Shown piece after piece: positions 809-9,777 of a stretch of DNA of 13,633 nucleotides. The notes under the pieces were generated by a model, which was given only the letters and a program-made list of their open reading frames with translations, made no database searches and was not told the origin of the DNA. Origin of the DNA: Acholeplasmataceae bacterium. GTDB taxonomy: Bacteria > Bacillota_I > Bacilli_A > ML615J-28 > CAG-698. The position numbers were made by a program, and so were the translations under genes. How positions within the stretch are numbered: position 1 is the first letter of the stretch; every line of letters begins with the position of its first letter. The stretch is from assembly GCA_012840905.1 (NCBI GenBank), contig DUVT01000207.1:1-13633 (forward strand). Reading direction: 5' to 3'.

Positions 809-1963
809 TTATTCTCCAGTTTCTATTATTGCATTTCTTACTGCAACTACCACTCTTTCATCAAATACAGATGGAACTATATAGTCAGGTCTAATTTCAT
901 CTTTAATTAAGTCAGCAATAGCATAACTTGCTGCAAGACACATTTCATCTGTAATTTTTTTATATCTAGCATCTAAGATTCCTCTAAATAAGCCCGGAAA
1001 AGCAAGTACATTATTTATTTGATTTGGATAATCGCTTCTTCCAGTTGCAATAATATATGCTTTTGATTTTTGTGCATTTTCATAACTAATTTCAGGATTT
1101 GGATTTGCAAGTGCGAAAATAATCGGTTTATCTTTCATTGTATTAACCATTTCAGGTGTTAATACATCTTGAACACTTACTCCAATAAATACATCTGAAT
1201 CTTTAACTATTTCAGCTAGATCATCTCTGTCCTTAATATCATAAGAATCAATTAAGTTATTTTCTAACATATCCGTAACTGTTTTTGGGTAGTCTTTAGT
1301 TTTACTAATTATACCTTTTCTATTAACAGCATAGATAGTTTTTACACCTAATTTTTTTAATAACTTTGCAATACTACTTCCAGCTGAACCAAAACCTGAC
1401 ATTGCAACTCTTAAAGTATGAAGTGGTTTATTTACTAATCTAGCGGCATTAATTAATGCAGCAGCTGTAACAATTGCTGTTCCTTTTTGATCATCATGAA
1501 AAACAGGAATATCTAACTCTTCTGCTAATCGTTCTTCTACTTCTACACATTTTGGGAATGCAATATCTTCAAGATTAATTCCTCCAAATGATGGTGCAAT
1601 TGCTTTAATAGTGTTAATTAACTCTTCAGTATCTTTTGCATCAATACAAATTGGAATTGCATCAACATTTGCGAACTTCTTAAATAACAAACATTTACCT
1701 TCCATTACTGGCATCGCTGCAACAGGTCCAATATCTCCAAGACCTAAGACTGCACTACCATCTGTAATTACAGCAATCGTATTATGCTTTGACGTGTAGC
1801 GATATGCTAATTCCTTATCTTCTGCAATCTCCAAACATGGATAAGCAACTCCAGGAGAATAAGCTAGTGACAAATCATTTTTATCATCAAGCTTAACTTT
1901 TGACTTAATTTCTACTTTTCCACCAACGTGGAATTCTAATGCCTTTGTTTTTAAATCGTTCAT
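809..1963 (-). CDS. Malic enzyme, NAD(P)-dependent oxaloacetate-decarboxylating malate dehydrogenase
   Basis: Cytosolic oxidative decarboxylation of malate to pyruvate and CO2, giving NAD(P)H. Counting from the ATG at 1963 (384 aa, the short bacterial MaeB/YtsJ-like form without the phosphotransacetylase tail): AYSPGVA with the catalytic Tyr (about 35-41), TDGSAVLGLGDIGP (67-80), catalytic Lys in MEGK (87-90), acidic metal-binding NLED (130-133) and HDDQKGT (156-162), Rossmann motif SGFGSAGSSI (189-198) and FALANPNPE (283-291). An upstream in-frame GTG at 1972 would add three residues but lies within the ribosome site AAAAGGGTGA, so the ATG at 1963 is preferred. The second strand of the Rossmann fold ends in N (VNRKG) where NAD-linked relatives often have D; I cannot call the cofactor. 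First gene of an operon with the lyase-like gene behind it. Confidence 0.93.
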   Translation of the reverse strand: MNDLKTKALEFHVGGKVEIKSKVKLDDKNDLSLAYSPGVAYPCLEIAEDKELAYRYTSKHNTIAVITDGSAVLGLGDIGPVAAMPVMEGKCLLFKKFANVDAIPICIDAKDTEELINTIKAIAPSFGGINLEDIAFPKCVEVEERLAEELDIPVFHDDQKGTAIVTAAALINAARLVNKPLHTLRVAMSGFGSAGSSIAKLLKKLGVKTIYAVNRKGIISKTKDYPKTVTDMLENNLIDSYDIKDRDDLAEIVKDSDVFIGVSVQDVLTPEMVNTMKDKPIIFALANPNPEISYENAQKSKAYIIATGRSDYPNQINNVLAFPGLFRGILDARYKKITDEMCLAASYAIADLIKDEIRPDYIVPSVFDERVVVAVRNAIIETGE

Positions 1964-1986
1964 ACTATTCACCCTTTTACATTACT

Positions 1987-1992
1987 ATAATA
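1987..1992 (-). promoter_or_regulatory. Extended -10 promoter of the malic enzyme operon
   Basis: On the minus strand TGG-TATTAT forms an extended -10 (TG at 1994-1995) about 24 bases before the ATG at 1963. No good -35 is seen at 17 bases, which extended -10 promoters tolerate. The transcript would start near 1980 with a leader of about 17 nt holding only the ribosome site. Confidence 0.55.
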
Positions 1993-2041
1993 CCATTTTT
2001 TTATGCTAATTAAAAGTAAATTTTAAATTAAACAGCAAAAA

Positions 2042-2070
2042 GAATATATTTAATTTATTTTTCATAAACT
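2042..2070 (+). promoter_or_regulatory. Possible sigma-E-like promoter before the murA homologue
   Basis: GAATATA at 2042-2048, 14 bases of spacer, and CATAAACT at 2063-2070 resemble the sporulation sigma-E pattern (kmATATT, 14-15 nt, CATACANT) with one mismatch in each box. No convincing sigma-A promoter is seen in this gap. In sequence this AT-rich a chance match is quite possible. Confidence 0.3.
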
Positions 2071-2093
2071 TTAGTGTCATATGAGGTGAAAAT

Positions 2094-3344
2094 ATGAAAA
2101 TAAAACTTAGAGGAAAACAGAAATTAGAAGGTAGTGTTCATATAAGTGGAGCCAAAAATAGTGCTGTTGCAATAATCCCAGCATCCATTTTAGCCGATGA
2201 AAATGTAGTGATTAGAAATGTTCCAAATATAGATGATGTAAATACTCTAATTGAAATAATGCGTGATATGGGTTATTTAATAACCTTTGAAAACAATGTT
2301 GTTACAATTAAAGCAAAAAGAAAAGTTCATTATCATATAAATAATGAACTTGTAAAAAAGTTACGTGGTTCATATTACTTTATGGGCTCAATGCTAGGTA
2401 AGATAGGAAATGTAAAAATTAGTAACTCTGGGGGTTGTAATTTAGGTAATAGACCTATTAATTTTCACTTAGAAAGTTTTCAAAAACTTGGAGCAAACCT
2501 GCTTACTAACGATGAAGAAATCCATCTAAAAGCAAAAAAATTAATAGGTACAAATATTCATTTAGATTTCCCTTCAGTTGGAGCTACAATAAACACAATA
2601 TTAGCAGCAGTAAAAGCAAAAGGCATAACAACAATAACAAATGCAGCAATCGAACCAGAAATTGTTGATGTAGGTAATTTCTTTATTTCTATGGGGGCAA
2701 AAATTGAAGGTTTAGGAACACCAATAATTAAAATAACAGGCGTGAAAAAATTAAAACAAACCGATTATACTATCATTAGCGATAGAATCGAAGCAGGTAC
2801 TTATTTAATCCTTGGAGCAATCGCAACTGGAAATGGTATTAATGTATTAAACGTCAATCCAACTCACTTAATTGCTTTAACTGATTTATTAAGAGAAATT
2901 GGCTGCACTCTAAAAATAAAAGAAAACGAAATATTTATTAAACGAGCTGAAACATTAAATAATTTCCTTATAACAACTAAACCATATCCAGGATTTCCAA
3001 CCGACTTGGGGCAACCTCTTGCTGCACTAATGCTTACTATAGATGGTGAATCAATAATTGAAGAAACGATTTTTTCAAATCGTCTTTCTCATGTTAATGA
3101 ACTTATCAAAATGGGAGCAGATATAGAAGTTGAGGGCAATAAGGTTATTGTAAAAGGTGGTAAAGAATTAAAACCTAGTAATTTAACTGCCTATGATTTA
3201 AGAGGTGCAGCTTCCCTAGTTTTAGCAAGCACACTTACAAAAGGAATTACTTAAATAGACAATATTGAAACCCTTCTTCGCGGCTATGAAGACCCAATCG
3301 GAAAACTAACTAAACTCGGACTAAAAATAACATTAGAAAATTAA
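2094..3344 (+). pseudogene. murA: murA homologue (UDP-N-acetylglucosamine 1-carboxyvinyltransferase) with premature stop
   Basis: MurA transfers enolpyruvate from PEP to UDP-GlcNAc, the first committed step of peptidoglycan synthesis. The family pattern is preserved: SGAKN with the Lys that matches Lys22 of E. coli MurA, GGCNLGNRP with catalytic Cys (Cys115) and Arg120, GATINTI, EPEIVD, DRIEAGT, and FPTD with Asp305. Translation starts at ATG 2094 behind GAGGTGA (2083-2089). It stops at TAA 3252-3254 after 386 residues. The same frame then continues for 29 codons to a second TAA at 3342-3344, and those residues are the normal MurA ending, including LRGYE with the Arg equivalent to Arg397 and a GKLTKLG segment. 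Read through, the product would be about 416 residues, the usual length. A nonsense substitution is the simplest reading; a sequencing error is the alternative. Without the tail an active-site Arg is missing. The terminator lies just past the second stop, not the first, which supports the longer ancestral gene. Confidence 0.85.
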
Positions 3345-3367
3345 AAACAGCCATTGTGGCTGTTTTT
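3343..3367. terminator. Bidirectional intrinsic terminator between murA and glyA
   Basis: Perfect 10-bp stem AAAAACAGCC / GGCTGTTTTT with loop ATTGT (3353-3357). It carries a T tract on both strands, so it serves plus-strand murA and minus-strand glyA, which ends at 3373. Confidence 0.9.
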
Positions 3368-3372
3368 GTTAT

Positions 3373-4611
3373 TTATACATATATCGGAAACTTACTTGTA
3401 AGCTTGATTACTTCTCTTTTTATTTTTGCTAACTCTTCTTTATTATCATAATTTCGAAGTGCTCGATCAAGTAGTAAAGCAACTTCTTTTACTTCTTGTT
3501 CTTTGAAACCTCTAGTTGTAATACTTGCAACACCTAGTCTTATACCACTTCCATACATAGGTTTTTCATCATCATATGGAACAGTATTTTTATTGCAAGT
3601 GATTAAGACATCATCTAGAACTTCTTCCGCAAATTTTCCAGTAATTCCTAAACTTTTCTTCACATTTACAAGCACCATATGGTTATCACTGCCACCAGCA
3701 ACAATTTCATAATTTAACTTTTTCAATTCTTCTGCTAGTGTTTTAGAGTTTTTAATTACTTGTTCTTGATAAGTTTTAAACTCAGGAGTCATTGCTTCTA
3801 AGAAGCACACCGCCTTCGCAGCAATAATATGCATTAAAGGTCCTCCTTGAATTCCTGGGAATATTGCTTTATTTATTTTCGTAATTAAATCTGCAGAGTT
3901 CGTTAGTATAAGCCCACCTCTTGGACCCCTTAATGTTTTATGAGTTGTTGTTGTAACGATATCAGCATACGGAACTGGATTTTGATGCAATCCTGCAGCA
4001 ACTAAACCTGCAATATGTGCCATATCAACCATCAGCAAGCTACCAACTTTTTTAGCAATCTCTCCTATTTTCCTAAAATCAATTTCTCTTGAATAGGCAC
4101 TTGCGCCTGCTACAATTAACTTTGGTTTTAATTTACTCGCCAATGATTCTAAACCATCATAATCTATCATTTCCGTATCTTTATCTACATAGTATGGATG
4201 AAACTCATAATCTTCCCCAGAAAAACTAAGTGGATGCCCATGAGTTAAATGTCCACCTTGATCTAGTGCCATCCCTAAAACTACATCACCAGGTTTCAAC
4301 ACTGCACGATATGCAGCCATATTTGCAGAACTACCGGAATGTGGTTGAACATTTGCATATTTTGCATTAAATAATTTGCATGCTCTTTCAATAGCTAAAG
4401 CTTCAATCTCATCAACAACCTCACAACCACCATAATATCTTTTTTTAGGATAGCCTTCTGCATATTTGTTTGTTAGGATTGAACCTTGAGCTTTTAATAC
4501 TGCATTTGAAACAAAGTTTTCCGATGCGATTAGTTCGATGTTATTTTGTTGGCGAACTAATTCTTTTTCAATTAACGAAAATATTTCAGGATCATTAAAA
4601 TTATTAATCAT
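3373..4611 (-). CDS. glyA: Serine hydroxymethyltransferase
   Basis: PLP enzyme of the cytosol that converts serine and tetrahydrofolate to glycine and 5,10-methylene-tetrahydrofolate, the main source of one-carbon units. At 412 aa it has the normal bacterial length. Visible signatures: ENFVS (31-35), [12 protein letters not shown] (53-64), QPHSGSSAN (89-97), VDMAHIAG (195-202), [14 protein letters not shown] with the PLP-binding Lys at 225, and FPGIQGGP. The start at 4611 is set by AAGGAG seven bases upstream. It has its own strong promoter in the 67-base gap after the PTA/PTB-like gene and ends at the shared terminator, so it is probably transcribed mainly alone. All key residues appear intact. 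Confidence 0.98.
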
Positions 4612-9018: not shown

Positions 9019-9488
9019 TAATTTCTCCTTTTAATTTTCTTAGTAATTTCTTAATCCGTTTAAATAGTTTAACTATTAATTTTTTTATTTTCCTAAATGC
9101 TTTTTTAATAAATAGAAATACTTCTTTTGGATATATAAGTAAGTAAATAGTCTTTTTATATTTACGATAAATCTTTCCTATAAATATAACAACTGAGTTT
9201 ATATTTTTTTTGAAGTCCTCCCGGAGTAGATATACATAGATAACAACCCCTATAAAGAAAAAACAAAAAGGTGTAAATCGTTAAGTAACCTTCGCTTACC
9301 TTTAACATATATAAACAAGCTATAATAACCATACAAATCCAAAAGATTAATTCAATTATATAGCTTATTATTTGCTTTACTTTAACTCTTCTTAAAAAAT
9401 AGTGCAATATATCAAACATCGCACCAAGAAACATTCCAAATATCAAGAAATAAATAATAAGAATAACTTGTTCTCGAAAACTAATCAT
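8948..9488 (-). pseudogene. yabQ: yabQ homologue (spore cortex biosynthesis membrane protein), frameshifted
   Basis: The first 78 residues have the YabQ pattern: short N-terminus, helix, FLGAMFDILHYFLRRV (20-35), further helices, and EGYLTIYTFLFFL (66-78). Uninterrupted translation would leave the family at residue 79 and stop at 9162 (108 aa). In the +1 frame from 9253 the coding continues with a matching helix (IGVVIYVYLLREDF) and then a long Lys/Arg-rich amphipathic tail, open down to TGA at 8948-8950. Skipping one base at CTT-T (9254) gives a 179-residue protein, within the family's normal range. The simplest lesion is one extra base in the run of six A/T at 9258-9263. Start ATG overlaps the yabP stop (ATGA). 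In Bacillus YabQ is a mother-cell protein needed for cortex formation. The overlap with the zinc lipoprotein start suggests the last part of the frame may not be native. Confidence 0.75.
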
Positions 9489-9760
9489 TTAAATAACTTC
9501 GCCAAAAATCCTTTTTCAGGTTGATTTTTTCTTTGGTTCAAATATTCCATTAAATAAACTTTCCCAGTTATTACTAACGTTTCGCTTCCAAGATCCAAGT
9601 GCTTCATTTCCAAATTTGATCCTTTTACAACCATTCTTCCTAAGACAGTTTCTACATAAAGTTCAGCTTCATTAAGGCTTTCTAACTTTTTTACACCAGT
9701 AATTTGGAGTTCACTTCTATTTTTTAAAATTATTTCTTGACTACTTACTTCTTGATTCAT
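9485..9760 (-). CDS. yabP: Sporulation protein YabP
   Basis: 91 aa from ATG 9760, with GAGGTGA five bases upstream; an in-frame GTG at 9769 lies inside that site and is discarded. It matches the YabP/YqfC pattern: NRSELQITGVKKLESLNE (14-31), LYVETVLGRMVVKGSNLEMKHLDL (34-57), TLVITGKV (61-68), EYLNQRK (72-78). YabP is made in the mother cell during sporulation in Bacillus and Clostridia; its biochemical role is not known. The gene overlaps yabQ by four bases (ATGA), the classic yabP-yabQ arrangement. A sigma-E-type promoter lies immediately upstream, in keeping with sporulation control. The reading frame is intact, unlike its partner. Confidence 0.85.
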   Translation of the reverse strand: MNQEVSSQEIILKNRSELQITGVKKLESLNEAELYVETVLGRMVVKGSNLEMKHLDLGSETLVITGKVYLMEYLNQRKNQPEKGFLAKLFK

Positions 9761-9777
9761 AACATTCACCTCGCTAA

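Follow-up and report, generated by a model that had tools for sequence, protein, structure and literature searches.

The question raised by this locus is whether a murA gene that is closed by a stop codon ahead of its conserved end is in the course of being lost, or is an ordinary gene that carries one isolated fault. The window, that is the whole stretch of 13,633 nucleotides that was analysed, is contig C127 of a draft genome (G000) of 1,254,086 bases in 308 contigs, which is 82% complete. murA, encoding UDP-N-acetylglucosamine 1-carboxyvinyltransferase, lies on the forward strand at 2094–3254 and consists of 386 codons followed by an in-frame TAA (3252–3254) at codon 387. Translation of positions 2094–3344 gives the 386 residues, this stop, a further 29 residues (3255–3341) and a second TAA (3342–3344). 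The second stop is the end of the full-length frame, which has 416 amino acids. Scored against the MurA model TIGR01072, the whole frame with the one stop inside it gives 485.9 bits (cut-off 392.7), and the 386 residues alone also lie above the cut-off (453.8 bits). The gene resembles other MurA sequences of this family in its homology over the whole length and in the presence of the catalytic cysteine codon (residue 115, 2436–2438), and differs from them in the stop situated 30 codons before the normal one. A terminator-like hairpin lies between murA and glyA at 3342–3368, with 12 pairs on the forward strand and 11 on the reverse strand, and is common to murA and the convergent glyA on the reverse strand. 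Two terminator-like sites are found in 1950–3450 against 0.5 expected in shuffled sequences. Promoter-like sites for murA give no signal (7 found, 7.9 in shuffles).

The nearest relative among the matches listed is P0001, a public MurA of 416 amino acids that represents a cluster of 18 member sequences. It is identical to the window MurA at 382 of the 386 body residues and at 28 of the 29 tail residues (99%), with a sense residue where the window has its stop (column 387). Nine other close homologues share 18–23 of 28–29 tail residues with the window, and four genomes of the family share 17–19 of 28–29. For wider comparison 148 relatives were aligned, made up of the 120 best of 8000 scored proteins together with 28 of the 29 loci L004–L032; the protein and locus sets may overlap. 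L008, in which no frame was found, was left out, and L022 and L032 were trimmed at an inner methionine. Mean identity to these 148 relatives, the best 120 of 8000 included, is 0.55 for the tail and 0.53 for the body, and the tail is without decay relative to the body of the gene. An open run of 29 codons is expected by chance at this base composition in about 10% of cases; the open run alone is weak evidence, and it is the conserved sequence of the tail that carries the argument. Judged in this way from sequence comparison, the homology to murA beyond the first TAA is far above chance. An earlier note on this DNA had described MurA similarity for 29 codons past the first stop and a second TAA followed at once by a terminator, and both descriptions hold.

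The place of the stop is not shared. Relatives whose MurA naturally ends at codon 387 had been named in the earlier note as a result that would speak against a mutation, and there are none among the 148 aligned sequences (again with the best 120 of 8000). Homologue lengths range from 412 to 451 amino acids in 119 of the best 120 of 8000 proteins scored, the exception being P0031 (327 amino acids), which lies on a 2.6-kb contig. The note had also proposed a comparison of the codon in close relatives, which is answered by the sense residue of P0001. As P0001 is near-identical and full length, an intact murA exists in the same species or in one very near to it. On this comparison the stop is not fixed, and it does not characterise the species and its near relatives generally. 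A scan of genome contigs gave one relative only (44%). The cluster that contains the LysS of the window (P0121) is found on four contigs, the longest of which has 1,607,940 bases, which suggests that close kin have been assembled far more completely.

The 386 residues of the window MurA align to 419-residue chains such as 1uae, which we take to be E. coli MurA, with an offset of one. Since the same offset persists up to residue 412 in P0001, which is intact, Arg397 of the 419-residue chains corresponds to residue 396 of the window frame. Its codon (3279–3281) lies nine codons past the TAA and therefore outside the 386-residue product. Cys115, Arg120, Asp305 and Arg397 have catalytic roles in MurA, and murA is essential. 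Arg396 and Tyr398 are invariant across the 148 aligned sequences (the best 120 of 8000 among them), as are Cys115, Arg120 and Asp304, and column 387 is occupied in the same set by many different residues. Cys115, Arg120 and Asp304 are retained in the window MurA; we take these to be the residues with catalytic roles, Cys115 presumably being Cys115 of E. coli. The product ends before the C-terminal RGY motif, which contains the Arg397 equivalent, so that the earlier claim that the stop removes the Arg397-bearing tail was correct.

The structural consequences were considered on a model of P0001, which has a mean pLDDT of 93 and a pTM of 0.92 and falls below 50 only at residues 114–119. Residue 387 falls inside a β-strand (385–389) of this model. 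The lost part comprises the end of that strand, two short helices (392–395 and 401–407) and the last strand (411–415). With these elements and the conserved arginine gone, a real stop would leave a product that is misfolded or has no activity, and loss of MurA function is the expected outcome in that case. Papers listed for MurA Arg397 and for premature murA stops in metagenome genomes did not, from their titles and abstracts, bear on this case.

It had also been suggested that the organism may have a spare murA or may be losing peptidoglycan synthesis, and neither suggestion is supported by the rest of the genome. A second murA was not found in the readable contigs of the 82% complete assembly by profile search (E ≤ 0.001). 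The only other match at this threshold, L002, scores as AroA, above the AroA cut-off, and was rejected as a spare copy. MurB is complete, with 304 amino acids and no internal stop. MurC, MurD and MurE are cut by contig ends and contain no stop in their readable parts; the cut MurD passes the cut-off of its model, and the cut MurE and MurC fall below theirs. A SpoVD-like penicillin-binding protein (PBP) was read in part (401 amino acids), and its whole frame of 633 amino acids is without a stop. The fourth Mur-ligase match is FolC. Decay or absence of the peptidoglycan pathway as a whole was not observed where the genome is readable. No ftsW, mraY or murG was found in this assembly, which is 82% complete and in which sampled contigs of less than 3 kb read as N. 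The gene order in two relatives (G001 and G018) is PBP, Mur ligase, mraY, Mur ligase, and in G010 mraY directly follows the PBP. As contig C300 ends inside MurE and contig C63 begins inside MurD, mraY may well sit in the gap between them. ftsW and murG, which lie side by side in most relatives, could be absent as a pair. Next to murB, at 2401–3666 of locus L103 (contig C277), there are three consecutive short ORFs, which we take to resemble small heat-shock proteins.

Interruptions were sought in a sample of the genome consisting of 23 readable stretches, the window included, with 145,594 bases in all and a G+C content of 27–33%. It derives from the window and 36 further contigs, of which 14, all shorter than 3 kb, read as N. 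The scan used 788 ORFs of at least 120 amino acids from 68 loci of relatives (E ≤ 1e-10), and matches that overlapped a better-scoring one, many of which were antisense and stop-rich, were excluded before the count. The 58 non-overlapping gene matches that were left, covering 46,035 bases, contain one clear interruption, that of murA. The other stop-containing match that was kept, L073 (31% identity), has its stop at position 24 of a 197-amino-acid query and is most likely an alignment that overruns a start codon. That murA alone is interrupted is in keeping with a stray error or a rare allele but not with broad decay, and the lack of any other clear stop in the sample means that the general error rate of this genome is not high. 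The division into 308 contigs and the completeness of 82% would suit thin coverage.

Broken genes are also seen in related drafts. In G006 and G025, of the same family, rpoB lies in two open frames; as real loss of rpoB is not credible there, base-level artefacts do occur in such assemblies. In G025 murD is likewise split across two frames (1747–2984 of L155, on contig C88), probably by assembly errors. A further draft of the same order, G037, has an in-frame TAA in its own murA (1459–2727 of L044, which is C1:9700–13800), with 206 codons, the TAA and then the remainder in the same frame, at 32% identity. The murA matches of four other genomes in that genus are without a stop. Nonsense codons recurring in wall genes were considered as a pattern and the idea was dropped, the murD of G025 being a frame break and G037 being one draft only. 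An apparent TAA inside murG of G018 was similarly set aside, as an intact ORF of 359 amino acids has its start codon just after it.

The family of the window is mixed with respect to wall genes. MurA, MurB, at least four Mur_ligase_M matches and a transpeptidase are found together in 11 of its 28 genomes, G000 included, and the best Mur_ligase_M match in each of these is 4.4e-33 or better. The other 17, with absence judged on draft genomes, have no transpeptidase match. They have 0–3 Mur_ligase_M matches (best 2.3e-15), among which FolC is to be expected, and their weak matches to MurA (G020) and MurB (G007 and G020) are none better than 1e-4. FtsW and MraY are present in ten genomes, namely the 11 without G000. 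murG has strong matches in the same ten, all below the curated cut-off, and one weak match in G009. Within one genus, g6, wall genes are found in G018 and G025 and none in G005 (97% complete) and G027 (61%). An rpoB tree of 27 of the 28 genomes requires at least six changes of wall-gene state, a count that does not separate gain from loss. The tree was made by a quick method with several partial sequences; G015 gave no match and was left out, G010 is on a long branch and the position of G000 is not settled.

A spore gene follows the same division. yabP and yabQ are uninterrupted in the window at 9162–9769, about 6 kb from murA. In the family yabP was detected in every genome with wall genes except G011 (10 of 11) and in none of the 17 without. 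Five of the nine yabP-bearing relatives in the family (G001, G002, G010, G018 and G024) resemble the window in carrying murA and yabP no more than 9 kb apart on a single contig. Repeated and ongoing loss of peptidoglycan and sporulation genes, down to the genus level, has been described for Bacilli near Mycoplasmatales, with mur genes in 40–60% of Anaeroplasmataceae genomes (Field et al., 2024; PMC10868615). The identity of the window's family with Anaeroplasmataceae is only a lead, and the word murA does not occur in the main text of that paper. The likeness to that wall loss is that the family mixes genomes that have wall genes with genomes that lack them, and that a spore gene tracks the wall genes. 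The difference is that here a single nonsense codon affects one gene, the other genes of the pathway being open where they can be read.

These observations bear differently on the possible explanations of the stop. The window very probably holds an ordinary murA in which one nonsense codon stands isolated, without being fixed in the species or its close kin. This codon would be either a base error or a rare allele of recent origin. Of these two, a wrong base in the consensus of a fragmented metagenome assembly has about an even chance of being the cause, and a very recent, rare strain allele is possible but less likely. In our judgement the odds of a sequence error are no lower than those of a true mutation. 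As the gene is complete in a near-identical relative, the stop most likely stems from an error or a rare mutation rather than from a novel biological feature. Against this explanation it must be said that what is seen in rpoB is a broken frame, in other genomes, and not a substitution in G000, that the error rate suggested by the sample of G000 is not high, and that the repeated wall-gene changes in the family raise the prior for real loss. The murA of G037, as a second draft of the order with an in-frame TAA in this gene, also counts against it. The recent nonsense mutation in a conserved gene proposed in the earlier note stands in so far as there is a single, recent-looking in-frame stop ahead of an undecayed tail.

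Were the stop real, the cell would have to rely on readthrough or go without peptidoglycan synthesis. A strain truly without MurA, at the first step of the loss seen elsewhere in the family, is unlikely. It would be in keeping with wall genes found in 11 of 28 genomes and not in 17, with both states in g6, with the state changes on the rpoB tree and with the published losses to genus level (PMC10868615). Against this, murB, the readable parts of murC, murD and murE and the SpoVD-like PBP are uninterrupted, yabP and yabQ are open in a family where yabP was found only alongside wall genes, and P0001 is intact. It is improbable that the murA nonsense allele is real and common locally and marks a walled, spore-gene-bearing lineage at this first step, the rest of its pathway still being largely intact, in a family with several losses of wall genes. 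Decoding of the TAA as an amino acid, so that full-length MurA is made, would agree with the conserved tail and with the variety of residues tolerated at column 387, which together suggest that a misread residue would probably be harmless. It has very little probability, however, as a stop at this place occurs in 0 of 148 aligned relatives (with the best 120 of 8000) and no tRNA with a TTA anticodon is among the 14 ARAGORN-confirmed of 15 tRNA matches of the incomplete genome. General reassignment of TAA is very unlikely, since 79 of the 118 sampled open frames with 150 codons or more end in TAA (counted as frames and not as curated genes). Activity of the 386-residue protein itself can hardly be expected: the invariant Cys115, Arg120 and Asp304 are retained, with the roles assumed above, but the Arg397 equivalent that would be lost is invariant in the same 148 relatives (best 120 of 8000 included), and in the P0001 model the cut would fall within strand 385–389 and take two helices and the last strand.

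Returning to the ordinary murA with one isolated nonsense codon, the finding as it stands matters little: it is a single such codon in one draft genome, and the gene is whole in a near-identical relative. Neither nonsense alleles nor assembly errors are new in kind, and the same holds for the repeated loss of the wall in these Bacilli. If the allele were real and common, it would offer a rare view of wall loss that starts at the first committed enzyme, before the pathway decays.
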